Below are positions 49,026-59,281 of a stretch of 64,000 nucleotides of DNA, piece by piece. The position numbers were made by a program, and so were the translations under genes. Positions within the stretch are counted from its first letter, which is position 1; each line of letters starts with the position of its first letter. The DNA is from Arthrobacter ruber (GTDB taxonomy: Bacteria; Actinomycetota; Actinomycetes; Actinomycetales; Micrococcaceae): contig NZ_PPTH01000014.1 in NCBI RefSeq assembly GCF_002954225.1, positions 1-64,000 on the forward strand, in the 5' to 3' direction. The notes under the pieces were generated by a model, which did no database searches, was not told where the DNA came from, and worked only from the letters and a program-made list of their open reading frames with translations.

Positions 49026-50195
49026 TCACGCGGGTGGATGCGGCGCGGCAGGGTCCGGGACGGCTGGCTCTCTCGCGGCGTCGGGCAGCGTCAGTCGCTG
49101 GCCAGGGCGCAGGCCCTCGGGCTCGACGTCGTCGTTGAGATCGGCGATCTCCTTCCAGTCGGCGATGCCGAGCCGCGTCGCGATACCGGACAGGGTGTCC
49201 CCCGCGACCACGGTGTGGATACGCCGCGGGGTGGGCAGCGGAATCGGGAAGACGGGCGGCAGGGTGGCCACCGGAGCACCGAGCCTCACGAGCGGGCCGA
49301 TGTCGGTTGCGAACGGCCAGCCCAGGCTCTCGTCGATGGCCACGTTCCAGTTGAACGCACCCCGGAGTCCGGGATGGCGGGCTGCCACGGTCTTCCATGC
49401 GCCCTCGACGACGGCACTGGTGGAGTAGTTTGCCGCGTTGCTCAGGCCGAACCCGACGCCGACACGGCCGGCGTCGCCCATCCGCACCACCCATTCGTCG
49501 ACGGACCGCACGATGTAGTTCTCGGCGGCAAGGTCGGGACCGTCGTAGTACTGCGGGTTGACCATGTCCAGGACACCCGCGTCGATCATCGCCCTGCAGT
49601 GCGCCATGTCGACCGCACGCCAGGGCGCGGGTGGACTGGTGATCGCGAAGTCCTGCCCGTACAGGGTCTTGAGCTGCTGGGAGACCCAGATCATCTGCTC
49701 GGTGTTGGGTTGCTGGTCGCCCTCGTAGTTGTTCCAGTCGAGCCCGTCGAAGCCGCCGAGCTCCCCGTAGATGCGCTCGATGCTGTCCAGGAAGGCCTGG
49801 GCACGCGCGCGTGTAGAGATGTCCACGTTCGCCTGTGCGCCCCCGACCGTGAGGATCGCCGTCCGTGTCCTGCGGAACTCGGCCAGGTCCGCCGTGAAGT
49901 GGGTGGCCGCTCCGCGTCCGTCGCCGGGATCGTTCCACTGCACGGCACCGGTGGTACCTGGCGCGCCGCCGACGGGAGTCGCGTAGAACAGGAAGACGGT
50001 GTTGTAGTGCGCGGGGACGTCCCTGAGACGCACCGGCGACCCCCAATGGGTCCAGTAGCCCGCGACCACGCGGTTCGGCAGTGGGGTCATGACCTTGCTC
50101 CTGGGTGTCGGGAGGGGCTTGTCGTAGGGGTGGGTGAGGGTCGGGAGCGCGGCAGCCCAGGCTGCTCCGACGACGAACGAGCGGCGGGTGATCAT
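49026..50195 (-). CDS. Secreted GH18 (chitinase-like) protein with C-terminal LysM
   Basis: The 389-aa protein begins MITRRSFVVGAAWAAALP, a twin-arginine-like signal. The GH18 barrel includes RVVAGYWTHWGSPVRL, AILTVGGAQANVD and the active-site strand GGFDGLDWNNYEG (Asp150, Asp153, Glu158). The classical motif is DxxDxDxE; here the second-last Asp is Asn155 and the Glu sits one place later. Residues 340-385 form a LysM (HTVVAGDTLSGIATRLG) for binding GlcNAc polymers. It is the last clear gene of the glycan locus. Confidence 0.85.
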   Translation of the reverse strand: MITRRSFVVGAAWAAALPTLTHPYDKPLPTPRSKVMTPLPNRVVAGYWTHWGSPVRLRDVPAHYNTVFLFYATPVGGAPGTTGAVQWNDPGDGRGAATHFTADLAEFRRTRTAILTVGGAQANVDISTRARAQAFLDSIERIYGELGGFDGLDWNNYEGDQQPNTEQMIWVSQQLKTLYGQDFAITSPPAPWRAVDMAHCRAMIDAGVLDMVNPQYYDGPDLAAENYIVRSVDEWVVRMGDAGRVGVGFGLSNAANYSTSAVVEGAWKTVAARHPGLRGAFNWNVAIDESLGWPFATDIGPLVRLGAPVATLPPVFPIPLPTPRRIHTVVAGDTLSGIATRLGIADWKEIADLNDDVEPEGLRPGQRLTLPDAAREPAVPDPAAPHPPA

Positions 50196-50245
50196 GTCCT
50201 GCCTCCCCGCCGCTCGTCCGTGTGGTCGTCCTGCCTGTCGTCGTC

Positions 50246-50776
50246 CTACTTGGCGTCGTCCCCCGCGCCGCAGGCGATGCCGTCCCCGTTGGAGTCGAGC
50301 CCGAGCGGGTCCTCCTCCGTGGCCAGGCCGTCGGGGATCAGCGCCCGGACATCCTCGCAGGTGTAGAACATGGCCATCTCCGGCCCGTCCATCCCTGCAT
50401 GTCCTGCATGCTCCGCCGCCAGCCGGGGCGGAACGGGCGGGAGGCACCCCCCGTCCGTGCCGTAGCCCGGGACGCAGCCGCCGGCCAGTGCCGTGTCGGA
50501 CACATCACCCGCTTCCAGGCCCTTGACCGTGTCGGAGGTCATCGTGATGCCCTCAGCCTGCTCGGGCCCGGGCTCGTTGACGTCCGCGGCCTCGGGGGCG
50601 ACGTCCGCGATCGGGACCTTGGCCTCGGGGATCTGCGCATCCGGGCGGGCGTCCGCCGCCTGTACCGGGGGCGCCTCCACACCCGGGGCGCCCGGCGCGC
50701 CCACGGCGGGCTCGAGTGCGCACCCGCTGAGCAGCAGCAGTCCTGCTGCGGCGGCTGCCATGATCTTTGCTCTCAT
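50246..50776 (-). CDS. Excalibur-like calcium-binding lipoprotein
   Basis: The 176-aa protein has a signal peptide ending in LLLLSGCALE (lipobox Cys19). An Ala/Pro/Glu/Asp-rich spacer follows (residues 25-95), then a Cys-containing segment (GGCVPGYGTDGGCLP). The C-terminal Excalibur-like motif is YTCEDVRALIPDG with LDSNGDGIACG, a loop of DxDxDGxxC type that binds calcium. Its ATG overlaps the copper-radical oxidase stop in ATGA, so it is coupled to that gene. It may anchor or dock the glycan machinery at the cell surface. Confidence 0.85.
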   Translation of the reverse strand: MRAKIMAAAAAGLLLLSGCALEPAVGAPGAPGVEAPPVQAADARPDAQIPEAKVPIADVAPEAADVNEPGPEQAEGITMTSDTVKGLEAGDVSDTALAGGCVPGYGTDGGCLPPVPPRLAAEHAGHAGMDGPEMAMFYTCEDVRALIPDGLATEEDPLGLDSNGDGIACGAGDDAK

Positions 50777-53529
50777 CGGACGTTCACCATCCTGGCGACG
50801 GAGGGGACACCGCTGGCATCAAGGACCGTGAGCATGTACGGGCCGGGCGGCAGCAGCGCGGAGTTGGACGGCACGGATGCACGACGCGTCGTGCCGGTGC
50901 CGGTGATGGGCAGGTCGACCAGGCGGGCATTGGTGTCCGTCTGGTGGGTGGCCGACCCGACGGCGGTGAGCGAGGCGCTGACCACGTCGCCGGTGACGCC
51001 GAGGTCGAGGCCCGCACCGTAGGTGGTGGACCCCGGAGCTGCCGTGATCGTCGGGCGGGTGCCCTTGAACAGGTAGCCCGGTTCGTAGACCGACACGCGC
51101 ATCTCGAACGAGCCGTCGGCCGGGTTGGAACCGAAGACCGCCACGCGGCCGTCCATCAGCACCAGCGAGGAGGAGTGGTAGTTGCGGCCCACCGGGTCCG
51201 CCGCCACCGTGGTCCAGGCGTTGGTCGCGGGGTTGTACGTCGCCGCCCGCAGCACGTTGCCCGCACGGGGTCCGCTGCTGCCGTTGGAGGCCAGGACGGT
51301 GCGGTCGGGCAGCGTCGTGAGGTTCACGTACATCCGGCCTTCCGGCCCGGGCAGCGCCGGTCCGGCAGTCCAGGCGGGGTTGGCCGAGTTGAGGTTGATC
51401 AGGTCGACGCTGTTGGTCGCCCCGCCCCGGTCGGTCGAGCCGCCACCGGCGATCATGAAGGTCTGGTTCTGCGCCGGAGGGAGCAGGACCGAGCTGGCCT
51501 GGTCACGCAGCTGCCGGTCCCGCAGTCCGGGGACGTCGCCGCTGGTGGCGTTGCGCCAGTTGTGGATGACCGATCCCGTGGCCGACGGCGAGTTGCCGAA
51601 GGTGTAGCCACCCGTGAAGAACAGGTTGCCGTTGGCCATGAGGAAGAAGTGCGGGTAGGTACCCCAGTACCGGTTGGTCTGGGGGGTGGCCGCACGGGAC
51701 TGCCACTGGTTGGTCGTGGCGTTGAACATCTCCACGGCCGTCGATCCCTTGGCCACGCCGTCGCGGTTGTCGTAACCGCCGACCGACCAGATGTTGCCGT
51801 TCTCGAGCTTGGTCAGCGTCGGGTACCAGTGTCCCTCGATGGTGTCGTTGACCTTCGTGTAGCTGTCGGTGCCCGGGTCGAAGATGTAGGACTGCTTGGA
51901 CCCCACGTACCCGACCGCGTTCTTGTGACCGGCATAGCCCTCCGTGCCACCGCTGATGAGCACCCGGCCGTCCGGCAGGGTGACGTGCCCCGCGCAGAAC
52001 ATGTCGTAGGGCACCCGGATCTCCTTGAACGCCCCGGTGGAAGGGTTCCACACGGCGCTCTTGAAGGTGCCGGCGTCGAAGTCCCCGGTGTTGTTGCCGG
52101 AGCCCGCGAGCAGCAGGACCCTGCCGTCACGCAGCAGCGTGGAGTGGATCGCCCGGGCGGGCAGTGGGGCATTCGCGATGCTCCAGCGCCCTGTCGCCGC
52201 CAGGCCGGTGGCCGGGGGCGGGGTGGTGGGTGGCGGCGTCGTGGGCGTCGTCGTCGGTGGCGGCGTACCGCCCGGCAGGGTGACCGTCGCACCGACCGGC
52301 GCGTTGAGTTCCAGCCAGCGCTCTGACTCGCCGTGGCCGGACAGGACGTACCCTCCGCTGGGAATGGCCATGCCGGGCTGGCGCCTGCTGATCGTGGCGA
52401 CCTTGCCGTCGGCTCCGACCGCGACTTCGAAGCCCCACATGTTGGCCGGGCTCGCGGTGCCGGTGTAGCGCACCAGGAAGTCGGCCTCGCGCGCCACGTT
52501 GGTGCCGTTCAGGACGTGCTTCGCCGTCCCGATCTGGATCTCGTTGGCAGCCGGCGGCGGCGTCGTGGGCGTCGTCGGCGATGGCGTCGGCGTCGGCGTC
52601 GGCGTCGGTGTCGGGGTGGGTGTCGGGGTGGGTGTCGGCGTCGTCGTTCCACCACCCACCTGGACCGTCGCCCCGACCGGGGCGTTGGCATCCAACCAGG
52701 CAGCGGATGCCTCGTGCCCGGACAGCACGTAGCCCCCCGCCGGGATGGCCATGCCGGGCTGGTAGCGCGAGACGGCCGTCACCTTGTTGTCAGGTCCGAC
52801 GGCCACCTCCACGCCGTACTGGTTGGCCGGGCTCCGGGTGCCGGTGTAGCGCACGAAGGCGCCCGCCGCGCGGTAGATGTTCGTGCCAGTCAGGGTGCGG
52901 ACGGCGGAGCCGATCCGTACCTCGTTGGCGGCCGGCGGGGTCGTCGTCGGCGGTGGGGTCGTCGTCGGCGGTGGGGTGGTGGTGCCACCGAAGTTGATGG
53001 TGACATTGGCCGCGGGACTGCGGCCGGGGGGCCCGCCCCAGGTGCGCACCCACTCCTCGTCGAGCACGTGCGCCTCGATGGAGTACCCGGCCGTATTCGG
53101 CAGGGTGTAGGTACGGGTGCCCGGCAGTTCGTAGGCTCCGTCCCTGGTGGTCATCCGGTTGGCGACGACCCAGGAATTACGCCAGGTGCCGTCCGTGCGG
53201 GTGCCTGCGGCCGGCGCGGTCGCCTCGGCGAGCAGGATCTTGCCCTCACCGTTCTCGGGGACCTGCCGGGTGAAGTCGGGGTGGTAGAGCCACCACTCGA
53301 CCTTGACGATCGCACCGCGCGCGGGCTGGGTGACCCGCGCGGTCGCCTCCAGCGGCACGGTGCCGCTGAGGGTTGCCCCGGAGGCGGGTGCGGACATGCT
53401 GACGGCGACGCACTGCGTCCCCCAGACACACGGTGCGGCGCTCGCGGGAGAGACACCGACCAGGCCGACCAGGAGCACGGTGGTCAGCACGGCCAGGCCC
53501 CGGACGCGTAGAGCCCGTAGAGCGTTCAT
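50773..53529 (-). CDS. Secreted copper-radical oxidase (GlxA/galactose oxidase-like) with duplicated domain
   Basis: The 918-aa protein has a signal peptide (to about residue 32), an Ig-like N-terminal domain, and two about 92-residue repeats (about 201-292, 327-420) joined by Pro/Thr linkers. A Kelch propeller with a galactose-oxidase-type C-terminal domain follows. Copper and radical residues are all seen: Cys512 in DMFCAGHVTLPDG, Tyr569 in GHWYPTLTKLENG, Tyr784-His785 in NYHSSSLVLMDG and His862 in GSATHQTDTNAR. Such enzymes oxidise alcohols or aldehydes of sugars and make H2O2. GAAAGG precedes the ATG at 53529, which I prefer to one seven codons upstream. The following gene is coupled. Confidence 0.9.
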   Translation of the reverse strand: MNALRALRVRGLAVLTTVLLVGLVGVSPASAAPCVWGTQCVAVSMSAPASGATLSGTVPLEATARVTQPARGAIVKVEWWLYHPDFTRQVPENGEGKILLAEATAPAAGTRTDGTWRNSWVVANRMTTRDGAYELPGTRTYTLPNTAGYSIEAHVLDEEWVRTWGGPPGRSPAANVTINFGGTTTPPPTTTPPPTTTPPAANEVRIGSAVRTLTGTNIYRAAGAFVRYTGTRSPANQYGVEVAVGPDNKVTAVSRYQPGMAIPAGGYVLSGHEASAAWLDANAPVGATVQVGGGTTTPTPTPTPTPTPTPTPTPTPSPTTPTTPPPAANEIQIGTAKHVLNGTNVAREADFLVRYTGTASPANMWGFEVAVGADGKVATISRRQPGMAIPSGGYVLSGHGESERWLELNAPVGATVTLPGGTPPPTTTPTTPPPTTPPPATGLAATGRWSIANAPLPARAIHSTLLRDGRVLLLAGSGNNTGDFDAGTFKSAVWNPSTGAFKEIRVPYDMFCAGHVTLPDGRVLISGGTEGYAGHKNAVGYVGSKQSYIFDPGTDSYTKVNDTIEGHWYPTLTKLENGNIWSVGGYDNRDGVAKGSTAVEMFNATTNQWQSRAATPQTNRYWGTYPHFFLMANGNLFFTGGYTFGNSPSATGSVIHNWRNATSGDVPGLRDRQLRDQASSVLLPPAQNQTFMIAGGGSTDRGGATNSVDLINLNSANPAWTAGPALPGPEGRMYVNLTTLPDRTVLASNGSSGPRAGNVLRAATYNPATNAWTTVAADPVGRNYHSSSLVLMDGRVAVFGSNPADGSFEMRVSVYEPGYLFKGTRPTITAAPGSTTYGAGLDLGVTGDVVSASLTAVGSATHQTDTNARLVDLPITGTGTTRRASVPSNSALLPPGPYMLTVLDASGVPSVARMVNVR
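52583..52650. repeat. Thr-Pro codon repeat in the oxidase linker
   Basis: On the minus strand this stretch codes for about ten alternating Thr-Pro residues between the two duplicated domains. The repeated hexamer (ACGCCG and variants) can vary in length without breaking the frame. Confidence 0.7.
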
Positions 53530-53556
53530 TCGATCCCTTTCTTTCCCCATGACGGA

Positions 53557-55023
53557 TCAGCCACGGGTGTAGATGAGCCAGTTGTCGCCCGGGGCGGGCG
53601 ACGCAGGGAATGGCTCGAAGGCCAGGGAATAGGCGGAGCTCTCCTCGAGGGCATCGAGGAGCACGGCCTGTGCGGCGTCCTGCTCGGGGTTGCCCAGAGT
53701 GGAGCTGCGGAGGATCACCGCCTGGTAGCGCTCGTCGTCGACGGCCGAGCGGATGCTGCCCTCGCCCTCGAAGTAGAGCTCGAACGTCGTCTCCCAGGCC
53801 ACACCCGGGAGGTCGCTCGTGTGGTAGTCGAGGGCGTCGGTGGATGAACTGATGTACAGCCCCTCCCGAGGGTCGGACTCGATCGCCGTCACCACGCTCT
53901 GGACGTTGGTCCAGCGGTACATGGCATCGGCACGCACCAGGGGGAACAGCGCCATGATCATCACCGTGATCACGACGGGGGTGACCATCAGCGGGTAACG
54001 GGAGATGCGCGCGAGGCCCCATCCGACGGGGAGCGCGAGAAGCATGACCGAGTAGGCCAGGTGCTTCTCGAACGAGACCGCCTCACCCAGGATCATCTGC
54101 CCGATGGGCAGTGCCATCGAGGCGAGCACCAGGCCCGAGCCCAGGATCGGCAGCCGCCGGTCCCCGGCTCGGAACATGAGCACCAGTGACACCGCTGCGA
54201 GCAGCAGGACGACGATCAGGTGGTCACCGGCCAGACCCAGGAGCGCTCCCGTGGTGGTCGGGGACAGGGCGGTCCGATCGGTGGTGGTGAAGGCGACGTC
54301 CCGGGCGATGCTCTCCCCCCATACCGCCCACAGGGTGGCCAGGATGCCGAGCGCCACTCCGGCGGCGACGAGTGCCCGGCGCGCTCCGAGAACGCCCAGG
54401 ACGAGCGTCGCAGCGAGCACGACCGGTACGAAGATGCCGGCCGTGTACTTGGTCATGGCGGCCAGGGCCAGCACGGCGCCGAGGAGGACGGCCGAAGGGT
54501 AGCCCTTCCGGGTGAGGCCGATCCACAGACCCGAAGCGAGCAGGAAGATCACCGGGGCATCGAAGGTGCCGAGCCAGCCGGTGAAGATCACCGGGCCGGA
54601 CAGCATGAAGGTGGCCGCGGCCAGCAGGCCTGCGCGCTTGCCCCACAGGTGCCGCGCCGTGCCGTAGAGGGCCATCGCCGTGCCGAGTACGCACAGCAGG
54701 CTGAACGCCCGCACGAGGTAGAGGCCCCCCACGGAGTCCAGCAGCGCTGCCAGCACGGGATAGAGCGCGGGCAGGCCCGAGAAGAAGGCACCGGCGTCTC
54801 CGAGTGGACGGCCCTCGGACCAGTAGTCGAGGTAGGCGTTGCCGGCATTGATGTACAGCGCCTCGTCGATGAAGGCGGTGTTGCGCAGGCGGACCGCGAG
54901 CGCGACGCCGTAGGCGAGGACGAGGCCCAGGAGCAGCCATTGCCTCTTCGCACGGCTCATGGGCGGGCGGGCCGCGGGAGTGATCTGCGATGCTTCGGAA
55001 CGCATCAGGGTCGCTGTGGTCAT
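53557..55023 (-). CDS. GT39/ArnT-like polytopic glycosyltransferase
   Basis: The 488-aa protein has about 11 membrane helices. The first outer loop holds AFIDEALYINAGNAYLDYW with the acidic residues typical of GT-C enzymes (PMT/ArnT family), and SGLPALYPVLAALLDSVGG follows. The C-terminal 100 residues form a soluble outer domain. GT39-like enzymes transfer sugars from polyprenyl-phosphate donors to proteins or glycans outside the membrane. Its start overlaps the deacetylase stop (ATGA). The oxidase follows 27 bases later. Confidence 0.85.
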   Translation of the reverse strand: MTTATLMRSEASQITPAARPPMSRAKRQWLLLGLVLAYGVALAVRLRNTAFIDEALYINAGNAYLDYWSEGRPLGDAGAFFSGLPALYPVLAALLDSVGGLYLVRAFSLLCVLGTAMALYGTARHLWGKRAGLLAAATFMLSGPVIFTGWLGTFDAPVIFLLASGLWIGLTRKGYPSAVLLGAVLALAAMTKYTAGIFVPVVLAATLVLGVLGARRALVAAGVALGILATLWAVWGESIARDVAFTTTDRTALSPTTTGALLGLAGDHLIVVLLLAAVSLVLMFRAGDRRLPILGSGLVLASMALPIGQMILGEAVSFEKHLAYSVMLLALPVGWGLARISRYPLMVTPVVITVMIMALFPLVRADAMYRWTNVQSVVTAIESDPREGLYISSSTDALDYHTSDLPGVAWETTFELYFEGEGSIRSAVDDERYQAVILRSSTLGNPEQDAAQAVLLDALEESSAYSLAFEPFPASPAPGDNWLIYTRG

Positions 55024-55808
55024 GGCTCCTGCTTGCTTGCTCGTGCCCGGTGGGTCAAGCCGAACCAGGCAGTGGGAAGTTCGATGTCAGCGGTGACGAC
55101 CTGGCCGAAGCACAGGTTCTGCGCCCAGTAGTGCTCGATGATCAGGGGCAGCGCATCCACGGTGAGGGCCTTGCCGTCGTGCAGCAGGAGGATCCCGCCG
55201 TCCGTCATGCCCTTGGATTGCTCGGCGACCTGCTCCGCGGTCGCGGCCTCGAAGTCCTTGGAGTCGACGGTCCACAGGACCTCGATCATTCCCCGGCTCT
55301 CGACGGCTGCCCTGAGTTCCGGGCTGGTATTGCCGAACGGCGGGCGGAACATCGTCGGAGGTTCGTGCCCGAGGTCGCGGTGCACGACCGTCGACGCGTC
55401 GATGTCGGCGAGGGCCGCCTCCAGGTCCATGGACAGCAGGTCGGGGTGGGTCATGCTGTGGTTGCCCAGCTGATGACCCGCCGCCTTCGTGCGCTCCACT
55501 TCGCGGGGGCGTGCCCGCTCCTGGACGCCGTTGTTAAAGAACACCGCAGGGACCTTGTAGTGGTCGAGCACGGCCAGGAGGTCGGAGGTGAACTCCGTGG
55601 GGCCGTCGTCGAACGTCAGCGCCACGTATCCGGCGCAGGCGGTGGGAGCCGTCAGTACCGGCAGGTGACTCATGTCCGCCGCGTCGACCGCATTCTCGGC
55701 CCGGGGGATCGGTGTGGGTGGCAGAGGTTCTTGACTCGCGCAGCCCGTGAGGCCCAGTAGGAGCACCGCGACGGCGGCCCTGACGCGCAGGGCCGCCGTG
55801 CGGCTCAA
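55020..55808 (-). CDS. Polysaccharide deacetylase lipoprotein (NodB fold)
   Basis: The 262-aa protein has a lipobox (LLLGLTGCASQ, Cys23). The NodB motifs are YVALTFDDGPTEF (Asp67, Asp68), LGNHSMTHPDL (His117, His121), FRPPFGNTS and ILLLHDGK (late His). These bind a divalent metal and remove N-acetyl groups from chitin-like or poly-GlcNAc chains outside the cell. I chose the TTG at 55808, behind AAGGAGG at 4-base spacing; it overlaps the stop of the LAATG microprotein (TTGA), so both are coupled. Confidence 0.93.
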   Translation of the reverse strand: MSRTAALRVRAAVAVLLLGLTGCASQEPLPPTPIPRAENAVDAADMSHLPVLTAPTACAGYVALTFDDGPTEFTSDLLAVLDHYKVPAVFFNNGVQERARPREVERTKAAGHQLGNHSMTHPDLLSMDLEAALADIDASTVVHRDLGHEPPTMFRPPFGNTSPELRAAVESRGMIEVLWTVDSKDFEAATAEQVAEQSKGMTDGGILLLHDGKALTVDALPLIIEHYWAQNLCFGQVVTADIELPTAWFGLTHRARASKQEP

Positions 55809-55960
55809 AACTCCTCCTTGGGCCGCAGCCGGGTCAGCACGACGCCGGCCATGACGAACGCCACGCCGGAGACGACGATCCAGAACGCATCCAGCCCGGT
55901 GGCTGCCAATGCGGTGGCCGAGGCGCCGGTTGCAGCGAGACTTCCGTTTGCTCCGTACAT
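55805..55960 (-). CDS. LAATG-motif membrane microprotein (51 aa)
   Basis: The short gene starts at an ATG behind GGAGGGAAG and ends in TTGA overlap with the deacetylase. The protein has LAATG at residues 8-12 and again at 18-22, one membrane helix (about 25-42, AFWIVVSGVAFVMAGVVL) and a basic tail with Arg44, Arg46 and Lys48. LAXTG followed by a helix and basic residues is the sorting-signal layout used by class E sortases. It lacks an N-terminal signal peptide. Either it is a stand-alone anchor or a bitopic assembly partner of the synthase. Confidence 0.75.
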   Translation of the reverse strand: MYGANGSLAATGASATALAATGLDAFWIVVSGVAFVMAGVVLTRLRPKEEF

Positions 55961-55976
55961 TAGTTCTTCCCTCCTC

Positions 55977-57128
55977 TCAGGTGATCCAGACGCGCGCCTC
56001 GCGGCGCACGGCTCCTAGCAGGGAACGCCAGTACACGATGAACATGGCGTTGTCATAGAGCCACAGCGGGACGAAGAAGATGGCCGTCCGGATCGACGCC
56101 CTGTCCTTGGTCCGGTATGCGGTGACGATGTTCTCCGCCATGAAGATGGGCAGGAGGAACCAGTAGAACGGGTTGGGGGTGATGTCCCACAGCAGCCAGC
56201 TCAGGACCAGCGCGAGCAGCGCGGCCGGGAAGAGCAGGGACGAGAAGAACGTGAACGCGACCCCGCCCCAGGTGCGGCGGGTGATCTTGTTCCAGCCGTA
56301 GAGCCAGAGCGATTCCATGGCCCCTCGGTACCAGCGCAGGCGCTGGACCTCGAGGTCTCGGATCGTCGGCATGACGTCGGTGATCACCGGGCAGCGCTTG
56401 GTGCTGGTGCAGTCGAAGCCGAGGTGCCTGATCGCGAGGGTCAGCTCGTAGTCCTCGGTCAGGGAGTCCTCCATGTAGACGCTCCCGGGGGCGCCCGGAA
56501 GTGTCTTGCCGCGTGCATCGGCGATAGCCCGGAAGACGTGCACCGGGAACAGCGAGGCGGCACCGGAGAGAACGTGCACCTTGCCGCCCTGGCGCCCCAT
56601 GAGGCGGGTGCCACGTGCGTACTCGATGGCCTGGGCGCGTTCGATGAAGTTGTTGGGAGTGCGGGCGATGATGCAGCCCGACACCCCGCCCAGATTCGGC
56701 TTCACGTCATAGGCCCACAGGGCGTTCTTGACGAAGTCGTTGCTGAGCTCGCCATCCGCGTCCTGGGCCAGGATGTAATCGCCGTCGTCGAGCAGCGGCA
56801 TGACCAGGGCCAGTCCCTGGTTGAGCGCGCCGGCCTTCTTGGCCTTGTTGCCCACGGTCTCCAGCACCTGGGCGCCGGCCTCACGGGCCAGTCGTACGGT
56901 GTCGTCGGTGCAGTTGTCCGCCATGACGATGACCAACGCGGGTCTGATCGTCTGGGCGAACTGGCTGCGGACGGTCTTGACGATGCCGTCCTGCTCGTTG
57001 TGTGCCGGGATGAGTGACACGATGCGGGGCCCCGGCCGGTCCAGGCCGGAGAGGTCCAGGCCGCCGGCGTCGGGGGCGGTGGAGGGCGGGGCGCCCCCGA
57101 CGGAGAACGGGTCTGCGGTCAGTTGCAT
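55977..57128 (-). CDS. Processive GT2 glycan synthase (cellulose/chitin/PNAG synthase-like)
   Basis: The 383-aa protein has the GT2 catalytic core with SLIPAHNEQDG, Asp71 in MADNCTDDT, the DxD in QDADGELSND (123-125), the TED of TEDYELTL (224-226) and QRLRW (262-266), the finger-helix set of processive beta-glycan synthases. Four hydrophobic segments follow (about residues 290-315, 322-340, 348-366). UDP-sugars are polymerised and exported through the membrane. GGAGG precedes the ATG. It opens the glycan operon after a leader ORF that overlaps its first 10 bases. Confidence 0.93.
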   Translation of the reverse strand: MQLTADPFSVGGAPPSTAPDAGGLDLSGLDRPGPRIVSLIPAHNEQDGIVKTVRSQFAQTIRPALVIVMADNCTDDTVRLAREAGAQVLETVGNKAKKAGALNQGLALVMPLLDDGDYILAQDADGELSNDFVKNALWAYDVKPNLGGVSGCIIARTPNNFIERAQAIEYARGTRLMGRQGGKVHVLSGAASLFPVHVFRAIADARGKTLPGAPGSVYMEDSLTEDYELTLAIRHLGFDCTSTKRCPVITDVMPTIRDLEVQRLRWYRGAMESLWLYGWNKITRRTWGGVAFTFFSSLLFPAALLALVLSWLLWDITPNPFYWFLLPIFMAENIVTAYRTKDRASIRTAIFFVPLWLYDNAMFIVYWRSLLGAVRREARVWIT

Positions 57129-57253
57129 GACGGGCCTCCGTGCCGGACCTCGGCGCAGCGGCTGCAGGAGACTCTGGGGCGCTCTTGTTCGGGCCGGGGT
57201 CTCTCCTGCGGTTCAGGGGCCCGGGCGGGGGGCGTGGTGATAGTGGCAGTCAT
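57119..57253 (-). CDS. 44-aa leader ORF overlapping the glycan synthase start
   Basis: The frame starts at an ATG behind GAGGAGCGCAG. It codes for a Pro/Arg/Glu-rich peptide ending SCSRCAEVRHGGPSC, with C-x2-C and a further Cys. Its TGA lies 10 bases inside the synthase gene, a typical layout for translational coupling or a regulatory leader peptide. No homologue is known to me, and coding status is not proven. Confidence 0.5.
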   Translation of the reverse strand: MTATITTPPARAPEPQERPRPEQERPRVSCSRCAEVRHGGPSCN

Positions 57254-58348
57254 GACTGCGCTCCTCTTGAAGTGAGACCACGAGCTCAAAGGCTCGCGAC
57301 GAGACCGAATGCGCTTGTGCGCATGCAGGAAAGCACTTCACGACTGCCCTGTCGACGGCCGGAAGGCAGTTGATCGGACAATTGATTTGCGTTCAGCACA
57401 AAGCTTGTTCCGGTTCTCCGACTCGTTCACGAGTAGGTGCTACTCCACCTTTATCGGGGACTACTTGCCCGGCCGGACCGCTTTACTCAGAACCTCCGGG
57501 ACGGCCGGACAGACGGGCGACCGCCTGTTCCTCGTCATTTCCTGAGGATTCGCCTTGCTACGCCTGACACTTCCTACTCGTGTGCGCGCGGCGAGACCAT
57601 CAACGGACGGAGGGAAATTCCTTGCGGTGTCCGAAGTGGCGTTGATCACAATTAGTACGGAATTCGCGATGAAATGGTGCAGACCATTGCGGGCGTGGAT
57701 GGACGCCGCGCCAGGGTGCGCCACGCGGTGTGACGGGTGTGTCCCACGCGGTCCTTCAGGGACGCGTGACGCCGAGTTGTCCATCACGCTCAATCTGGCA
57801 GACGGCAGTAGTAACGGCCCCCTGACCTGCGCAATCAGTCCTATGCCGGCCCTCGTGGCCATGATGGGAGGGAGTCCGCGGAGCTGTTCCCGGGCCGACT
57901 CCCCTGGTACTCGACGGCTGCTTGGTGACGGGGCGCGGCCTGGAGGGAAGACCGGAGAAGCGGACGGGGGGTACCTGCTCACGGTGTCTGCAATTCGACG
58001 GTCGGCTCTGACGCGACGCAGTGCCCGACCGACTCGGAACTCGCTTACATGTTGTGTCCTGAAAGGGTGTTTCCGTCGGACCGTTCACCGCGAATTGGCC
58101 TTCCATGGATCGGATCCACCATGGATTCCACGACCCCGGCTTCCACCACCTATTGACGGGAAAAGTGACTCTTGCTGATCTCGAGGACTTATCCGAACTG
58201 CGCCATTTGTGCCTCTTAGACTATTGGAAGGGGCGAGGAAGTACCGGACCGGGGGAATTCAATGGGGCCTACGAGTAGTCGGAATTGGTAGACAGGTAGA
58301 TGAACTCCCTGATTTCGAGTATTCCGGTCCGAACTGGAGTGATATCCC
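57254..58348. other. About 1.1 kb gene-free region upstream of the glycan operon
   Basis: The sequence is visibly richer in A and T than its surroundings and no reading frame looks protein-like on either strand. It holds a short inverted repeat (ATGCGC/GCGCAT, 57309-57324) about 60 bases before the leader ORF. Near 58281 there is a 13-base stretch like a tRNA D-arm, but no complete tRNA. It may be a long regulatory region, a 5' leader, or the scar of lost genes. Confidence 0.5.
57309..57324. promoter_or_regulatory. Inverted repeat upstream of the glycan operon
   Basis: ATGCGC and GCGCAT are separated by TTGT. The site lies 56 bases before the leader ORF start, in a position suited to an operator. 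The recognition factor is unknown. Confidence 0.3.
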
Positions 58349-58655
58349 GTGCGGACGACCTCGCACCGGCTCCTCGCACCGTCGATCCGGTCGGACGAAC
58401 GCGCCGGGTTCCTCCGCCCCCGGCGCTCGCTCATGGGCCTGCGTCCTGTGGCGGACGACGTCTTCAGCGAGAACCGAGTGGGGCTCGACCATGTCGCCTT
58501 CGCCGTCGAGGATCGCGACGTCCTCGACGACGCTGCCAGGCAGTTGGACGATCGTCCTCTCACGCCCTGGAGCGAAGGACATCGGCGCGGGCTACATCCC
58601 GGAGTTCCGCGATCCTGACGGCATCGCACTCGAGCTCTGCGCTCCGAAGGCGTAG
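58349..58655 (+). pseudogene. Frameshifted VOC-family remnant
   Basis: Frame one (58349-58618) reads ENRVGLDHVAFAVEDRDVLD, the second half of a VOC domain. Near 58555-58575 the similarity moves to another frame, which ends IGAGYIPEFRDPDGIALELC. No frame covers both parts and the N-terminal half is missing. The last 60 bases are also the antisense of the GAF gene's end. Confidence 0.65.
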
Positions 58656-59281
58656 GTACCGGGTGCGGCCGGTCGGGCGGAGCCCGCGCCGTTGACCTCG
58701 AGCTCGGCTTCGTCCGCCAGACGGCGGAGCTGCGCGAGCCCCTGTCGGTCGAGGTCCCGCGGCTGCGGATCGAGGATGCACATGCTGCCCACGAACCACC
58801 CGCCGGGACCCCGCAGCGGTACACCGGCATAGAAGCGGGTGTAGGGCGCGCCCTTCACGAGGGGGTTGTCCCGGAAGCGCGCGTCAGCGAGGAGGTCGGG
58901 CACCACCAGTGTCCTGTCGCTCTGGATGGTGACGTTACAGAACGCCGCATGACGTTCGACGGCGCGCGGAAAGGGCCCTGCGAACGACTTGAGGTACTGC
59001 CGGTCCTCGGCGATGAGCGAGATGATCGCGGTCGACACCCCGAACCGGGACTGCGCCTGGCGGGTCAGGCGATCGAAGCGTTCCTCATCGCCTGAGTCGA
59101 GGAGCCCGGACCGGTCCAGCGCCCTGAGTCGCTGGCGCTCCATCTCGCGGTTGGTGGTCGATGACGTCGGAAGGTCTGACGGGATCTCCGCACCGGAGGA
59201 CAAAGGCATGGGCAAGAAGGGAATCCGCTCGGCTGGGGGTTGGGAAGGCTGACCGTTCGCTGCGGCAACGGATATACCCAT
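58592..59281 (-). CDS. GAF-domain protein
   Basis: The 229-aa protein has one GAF domain (about residues 45-200). It shows RLRALDRSGLLDSGDEERFD, FGVSTAIISLIAEDRQYLKS, ERHAAFCNVTIQSDRTLVV and GVPLRGPGGWFVGSMCILD, the pattern of sensors that read redox or small-molecule signals. The first 40 residues are irregular, so MERQRL about residue 47 could be the start. The last 20 residues overlap the VOC remnant and look like read-through into it. The signalling partner is not in view. Confidence 0.8.
   Translation of the reverse strand: MGISVAAANGQPSQPPAERIPFLPMPLSSGAEIPSDLPTSSTTNREMERQRLRALDRSGLLDSGDEERFDRLTRQAQSRFGVSTAIISLIAEDRQYLKSFAGPFPRAVERHAAFCNVTIQSDRTLVVPDLLADARFRDNPLVKGAPYTRFYAGVPLRGPGGWFVGSMCILDPQPRDLDRQGLAQLRRLADEAELEVNGAGSARPAAPGTYAFGAQSSSAMPSGSRNSGM

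Follow-up and report, generated by a model that had tools for sequence, protein, structure and literature searches.

The question raised by a compact gene cluster of Arthrobacter ruber (assembly GCF_002954225.1, contig NZ_PPTH01000014.1) is whether its enzymes act together on one surface polymer. The cluster lies in a window of 64 kb (70.3% GC), which is the whole stretch of DNA that was analyzed. Its seven open reading frames (ORFs), all on the minus strand (49026-57128), encode in reading order a GT2 synthase, a microprotein with the motif LAATG, a NodB deacetylase, a GT39 glycosyltransferase, a copper-radical oxidase, an Excalibur-like lipoprotein and a GH18-fold protein with LysM (Table 1). 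Judged from the sequence, they probably constitute an operon for a synthase-dependent surface glycan that is deacetylated, decorated and oxidized. Among synthase-dependent glycan systems the cluster is a conserved variant, and no description of it was found in the literature searched. The preliminary description of the region had suggested that the combination might be undescribed, and searches aimed at it indeed found no paper, although the subscription literature lay mostly outside those searches and the absence is weak evidence; a search for Excalibur together with galactose oxidase returned a single unrelated editorial. The most general new point is a one-helix partner of the synthase, and the most specific one is a compact oxidase with a four-cysteine partner. 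The genes would thus form a testable module that polymerizes a single surface glycan, deacetylates and decorates it, and oxidizes it by copper-radical chemistry.

The seven genes had been described as sharing one strand, with most junctions overlapping or shorter than 60 bases, and they were found exactly so, the junctions ranging from -4 to +50 nt. The microprotein gene follows GT2 after 16 nt and overlaps NodB by 4 nt (TTGA); NodB and GT39 (ATGA), as well as the oxidase and Excalibur-like genes, also overlap by 4 nt, and 50 nt precede the GH18 gene. Between GT39 and the oxidase there are 27 nt with the start at 53529, given by gene calling, or 6 nt with a start at 53550. Conservation was assessed in 395 genomes drawn from the family Micrococcaceae with GT2 relatives at E<=1e-85. 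Such a relative was present in 5 of the 395, own genome included, and two of the five have the full set. The gene order was recovered intact in Citricoccus (G114; 7/7 genes), with dN/dS values of about 0.20 for the microprotein and 0.17 for GT2, and three other Micrococcaceae (L112-L114) showed an oxidase-free variant, GT2-small transmembrane (TM) protein-GT39-NodB-GH18, with no oxidase at that place. Two contigs of Nanopelagicales metagenome-assembled genomes (MAGs; L028 and L029) keep the five genes from GT2 to the oxidase (5/5) up to the contig end, with synthase identities of 58-60%. The order kept in Citricoccus and in both MAGs bears out the proposal that the genes form one conserved system. 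Matches to GT2, the microprotein and GH18 in A. pityocampae and Arthrobacter sp. L77 were taken as linked because the contigs that carry them have equal lengths. The locus appears rare and patchy, yet conserved as a unit. In Citricoccus the gene beyond GH18 is convergent, hence the unit probably ends with GH18.

The assignment of the first gene as a processive synthase was confirmed. The protein matches PF13632 and PF00535, carries the DxD, TED and QxxRW motifs expected of processive GT2 enzymes, and has the HAS/Chs/BcsA fold with membrane helices; its model matches HAS and BcsA, except that the N-terminal TM helices are absent. The small protein encoded next to it had been called sortase-like, which has to be revised, since it resembles a sorting signal and not a sortase, and it is linked to the synthase. 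A protein search gave 15 relatives, and L18, A19 and G22 are invariant in the resulting alignment of 16 sequences, whereas an upstream LAATG at positions 8-12 is not conserved. When class-wide loci were collected by GT2 alone, a small one-helix ORF lay directly downstream of the synthase in 24 of 29, compared with 18 of 372 other genes in 34 loci; with a slightly lower hydropathy threshold, 15 of 17 Streptomyces loci had one beside GT2. LAx[TS]G is found in nine of the 24 class-wide microproteins, and the other 15 have the position and the single helix in common and mostly also an xxP[KR] tail. On a GT2 tree of 50 sequences, in which the tree tool flagged some long branches, the LAxTG label requires three changes against a shuffled mean of 16.9, and therefore travels with the synthase. 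A one-helix protein, mostly of 47-90 residues and easily missed in annotation, thus looks like a regular companion of a synthase family that is widespread in actinobacteria. Precedents exist: IcaA is significantly active only with IcaD (PMC4322838), and for a functional complex BcsA requires no more of BcsB than its membrane anchor, according to the discussion in PMC11022532. The microprotein is accordingly best regarded, from its linkage to the synthase, as a presumed synthase subunit first, and if so it would be a minimal version of the IcaD/PgaD/BcsB-anchor idea. The genome of the window itself contains a second GT2 (L026; G000:C16, about 187200-188210; 41% identity) with a different one-helix neighbour that lacks LAxTG, and similar pairs were seen in several other genomes of the genus.

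The oxidase is composed of a signal-like N-terminus, an N-domain of an unnamed family, two repeats of 90 residues on Thr/Pro linkers and a compact galactose-oxidase core (about 450-925, in residue numbers that assume the 53550 start). By phmmer this core is aligned with GlxA (4unm) at 9e-81. C519, Y539, W575, Y791, H792 and H869 are present in 37 of 37 aligned oxidases and all six align with 4unm; we take them to be the Cys-Tyr cofactor, the Trp, the axial Tyr and the two His of the copper-radical site. By these residues the protein qualifies as a probable radical copper oxidase of the galactose oxidase type. On the GlxA equivalog model NF052501, with a cut-off of 800 bits, it remained at 407 bits and three compact relatives at 393-408. 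The stretch from Tyr to Trp spans 36 residues, versus 149 and 153 in two canonical copies, and therefore domain 2 of GlxA, placed at residues 143-260 (PMC11022532), is absent. Hence the earlier label GlxA-like holds for the copper-radical site but the protein belongs to a compact subfamily. Relatives at 1e-50 occur in 60 of 394 genomes of the class, own included, and the ones that match the core over its full length, at 42-49%, come mainly from two families. Several genomes were seen to carry a compact copy plus a canonical-type one.

The Excalibur lipoprotein proposed as the next gene has the motif loop, four Cys and a lipobox-like site, but PF05901 scores 14 bits, below the Pfam cut-off of 22. 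A four-Cys Excalibur-like domain accompanies the oxidase in 27 of 29 fetched compact-oxidase loci, fused in 12 and as the next gene in 15; in the two others only 39 and 289 nt of sequence remained. None of 648 control windows matched the pattern, which derives in part from the same loci. In L228 and L233 Excalibur was not called by Pfam, and the name is therefore owed to the motif. Copper delivery is a possible role for the lipoprotein of the operon, given its His/Met-rich stretch. Streptomyces-type loci run GT2-GT39-PPM-synthase-like/GtrA-oxidase::Excalibur; this was read from Pfam in L228 and from similarity and position in L229 and L231, and L230 is missing the PPM-synthase-like gene. The Frankia-like L233 reads PPM-synthase-like/GtrA-oxidase-four-Cys protein-Sco-GT2-GT39-like, the last gene found by blastp with no Pfam match; L235 and L237 have a membrane protein at the place of GT2, and L232, L234 and L236 are partial. 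Overall, 9 of the 10 compact-oxidase clusters examined of these two kinds contain a GT39-like gene, and four more distant oxidase relatives (L238-L241) showed none of the labelled neighbours. The synthases of L228 and L233 are only 19-25% identical to that of the window; the set of oxidase, four-Cys partner and GT39-type gene is thus met again beside other kinds of synthase. In Frankia, sco lies beside cslA-glxA, and GlxA maturation needs Sco and DtpA (PMC4736821). With this operon, it may become possible to assign a defined polymer to the compact GlxA-like oxidases.

The remaining three enzymes had been named as a deacetylase, a GT39 transferase and a cutting GH18-LysM protein. The first name is well founded, as the NodB protein shows the CE4 motifs TFDDG, HxxxxH, RPP and LxHD, is matched by phmmer to 2cc0 and 2c1g, and combines its Pfam match with a lipobox-like site (Table 1), pointing to a probable lipoprotein. 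The second also stands, on a PMT_2/GT39 family match to a multi-pass GT-C protein; its identity is 74% to Citricoccus and 47% to L028 and L029. A GtrA gene just upstream of the Citricoccus GT2 is in keeping with a polyprenyl-phosphate donor. As to the third, the GH18 fold and LysM are present (phmmer to 3ebv, 2.8e-11, GH18 not being called by Pfam; LysM 2.9e-9), but the glutamate of the canonical DxxDxDxE is missing. Hydrolysis is therefore uncertain and cutting unproven, and binding of wall or polymer via LysM is as likely. Its TRRSFV start is presumably Tat-like. Among the 120 homologues listed of 196, 99 have Asn for the third Asp and Phe or Tyr followed by Glu, ten have Gln for that Glu, four keep Asp and seven have no clear motif. 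This large GH18-like group, often annotated as chitinase and mostly with DGxDWNx[FY][EQ], was also seen in myxobacteria and betaproteobacteria.

In the order of steps that we infer, GT2 and its one-helix subunit would polymerize and export a chain, most likely containing N-acetylglucosamine (GlcNAc), with the microprotein supplying the membrane helix that the short synthase is without. The lipoprotein CE4 deacetylase would free amines outside the cell, GT39 would add a sugar from a polyprenyl-phosphate donor, the secreted compact oxidase and its Excalibur-like partner would oxidize primary alcohols to aldehydes on the chain or a side group, and the GH18-LysM protein would bind or trim the polymer at the wall. 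Imine cross-links could then arise between the amines and aldehydes of a single polymer. The partly deacetylated and oxidized GlcNAc polymer suggested earlier is plausible because of CE4, the GH18 fold and LysM, but no computed result fixes the sugar. A farther-reaching proposal, to be regarded as speculative and rather unlikely in its entirety, is that the actinobacterial HAS-like GT2 family without N-terminal helices uses a separate one-helix microprotein, that in one subclass this helix is at the same time a class E sorting signal, through whose cleavage by sortase the synthase or its product is tied to the wall, and that here amines and aldehydes cross-link the polymer via imines.

Several observations weigh against a GlcNAc-polymer operon of this kind. 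The fold match of GT2 is no guide to a GlcNAc, glucose or mixed polymer, and on the PgaC/IcaA model TIGR03937 it scores 56.9 bits with a cut-off of 422, so it is not a PgaC equivalog. For five of the 29 class-wide synthases no small TM ORF was seen. The GH18 motif reads DGLDWNNYE, the position of the catalytic Glu being Tyr in the alignments with 3ebv and 9ojl. In Streptomyces, Sco and a DyP peroxidase take part in the maturation of GlxA, but PF20628 (DyP) had no match in the own genome or in Citricoccus, and the single Sco match in each of the two is borderline and lies distant from the locus; therefore maturation here may differ. Finally, in scans for promoters and terminators no signal stood clearly above shuffled sequence, which, together with the rarity of the locus, would suit unrelated neighbours that happen to share one strand. 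The overlapping ATGA/TTGA junctions and the order kept down to 58-60% synthase identity make such a coincidence highly improbable. A glucan system of the CslA/GlxA type, with a glucose-based chain and an oxidase acting mainly as structural activator of the synthase, is improbable too: the operon carries CE4, GH18 and LysM, which are not listed for csl in the accessible parts of its papers, the oxidase lacks GlxA domain 2, and in the variant without an oxidase the synthase still stands together with CE4 and GH18. Equally doubtful is the view that GT39 and the oxidase act on secreted proteins instead of the polymer, GT39 O-glycosylating Thr/Pro linkers such as those of the oxidase. PMT-type enzymes glycosylate proteins in actinobacteria, and long Thr/Pro-rich linkers occur in the oxidase of the window and in its Citricoccus relative. 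However, ten Streptomyces- and Frankia-like oxidases have at most 16 Thr, Pro or Ser per 30 residues, yet a GT39-like gene lies near nine of them, and the oxidase-free variant retains GT39.

A stronger competitor, though still the less probable one, concerns the microprotein, which could be mainly a class E sortase substrate, cut at Thr-Gly of LAATG so that its 21-residue N-terminus becomes attached to peptidoglycan and serves there as a wall peptide or glycan anchor. It has the LAXTG, the hydrophobic helix and the basic tail of such substrates, and the three invariant residues fall within the motif. GT2, an LAxTG/LPxTG microprotein and a sortase were seen as three consecutive genes in L178, L180, L182 (=L248), L194 (=L247) and L249. 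The motif tracks the enzyme in two clades: LAATG (L178) and LAMTG (L180) precede sortases reading GxGHY, LPITG (L182) and LPVTG (L194 and L249) sortases reading GxGHF. Only two of these enzymes were scored on the class E model (cut-off 160 bits), where that of L194 passed with 180 and that of L180 failed with 140. We take the Tyr of GxGHY to be the one that contacts the motif, by a mapping of our own, which, like the restriction to two clades, limits the argument. A conserved Tyr does recognize the Ala of LAXTG (PMC5148588). On the other side, 15 of the 24 class-wide microproteins keep place and helix without LAx[TS]G, and a downstream sortase signature, which finds all six known cases tested, was found in none of the 29 class-wide loci, in 3 of the 17 from Streptomyces and not in the operon of the window. 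Moreover, the protein has no N-terminal signal peptide and no passenger domain, only one hydrophobic segment (25-43) in 51 residues, and nothing else to display. A synthase subunit thus remains the preferred role, with sortase processing possible in the LAxTG subclass; if true, it would point to a link between sortases and the making of polysaccharides. A second kind of synthase, sorting-signal microprotein and sorting enzyme was noticed in L195 (7469-9654), where an LAxTG microprotein precedes an exosortase-like protein (nearest to XrtR/S/P, below cut-off) and an XrtP-type GT2, and by eye also in L150/L197 and L149/L196.

Among known systems, the Streptomyces csl locus (cslA-glxA-cslZ, with lpmP; PMC11022532, PMC9040799, PMC3543389, PMC4736821) is alike in joining a processive GT2, a GlxA-like radical copper oxidase and a hydrolase-type gene for a surface glycan. 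The window adds CE4, GT39, GH18-LysM, the Excalibur-like partner and the microprotein; its GT2 has no N-terminal TM helices, its oxidase is not GlxA by score and lacks domain 2, and neither GH6 (CslZ) nor a lytic polysaccharide monooxygenase was found among the eight ORFs scanned. The poly-N-acetylglucosamine loci icaADBC/pgaABCD and Streptomyces matAB (PMC5972031, PMC4322838) share the GT2 synthase and CE4 deacetylase, and the small membrane partner of ica and pga (IcaD/PgaD) may have a counterpart in the microprotein, which has one helix in 51 residues; GT39, oxidase, Excalibur-like protein and GH18 are additions here, and GT2 is far below the PgaC cut-off. The NF058583 (LAXTG_small_WW) proteins and XrtP/R/S-linked GT2 loci, as seen in L195 with its exosortase-like gene, also place a small LAxTG protein beside GT2, but the microprotein scores 33.3 bits (cut-off 65), the GT2 of L195 is another branch (27%) and the operon has no exosortase. 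Clusters L228-L237 share the compact oxidase, the four-Cys partner, a GT39-like gene and a GT2; they differ in the remote synthase, in PPM-synthase-like/GtrA and sometimes Sco genes, and in that no CE4, microprotein or GH18 was recognized.

Table 1. Predicted features of the operon and of the ORF preceding it
Feature	Position	Strand	Characteristics
micro0	57119..57253	-	44-aa soluble ORF with CxxC; overlaps GT2 start by 10 nt; possible leader or coupling ORF
GT2 processive synthase	55977..57128	-	383 aa; DAD 123, TED 224, QRLRW 262; three C-terminal TM helices, none N-terminal
LAATG microprotein	55805..55960	-	51 aa; one TM helix (about 25-43); LAATG at 18-22; RLRPKEEF tail; proposed synthase subunit
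CE4/NodB polysaccharide deacetylase	55020..55808	-	lipobox-like LTGC; TFDDG, NHSMTH, RPPFG, LLLHD; PF01522 3e-29
GT39/PMT_2-type GT-C glycosyltransferase	53557..55023	-	488 aa; 11 hydrophobic segments; PF13231 6e-7
Compact radical copper oxidase, secreted	50773..53529	-	PF09118 6e-20; NF052501 407 bits; phmmer to 4unm
Excalibur-like lipoprotein	50246..50776	-	lipobox-like LSGC; DSNGDGIACG loop; four Cys; His/Met-rich stretch; proposed oxidase partner
GH18-fold protein with LysM	49026..50195	-	phmmer to 3ebv; LysM by Pfam; DGLDWNNYE replaces DxxDxDxE

The right end of the region, set at 57253 in the preliminary description, is a real ORF boundary but belongs to the eighth ORF, micro0, and not to GT2. 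An intact micro0-like ORF precedes GT2 in L111 (39%) and L114 (62%). The status of micro0 as a gene is uncertain because the corresponding stretch of L113 (61%) has no ATG, GTG or TTG start and no such ORF was detected at that place in L112; the comparison with L111 (dN 0.63, dS 1.96, near saturation) gives a weak purifying signal. On the other flank, a luciferase-like monooxygenase gene lies 65 nt downstream of GH18 on the same strand. Upstream of the operon, about 1.3 kb (57254-58591) hold only one called ORF, of 90 residues on the opposite strand (58349-58618), before a GAF-domain gene (58592-59281), and this gap is a possible regulatory region.

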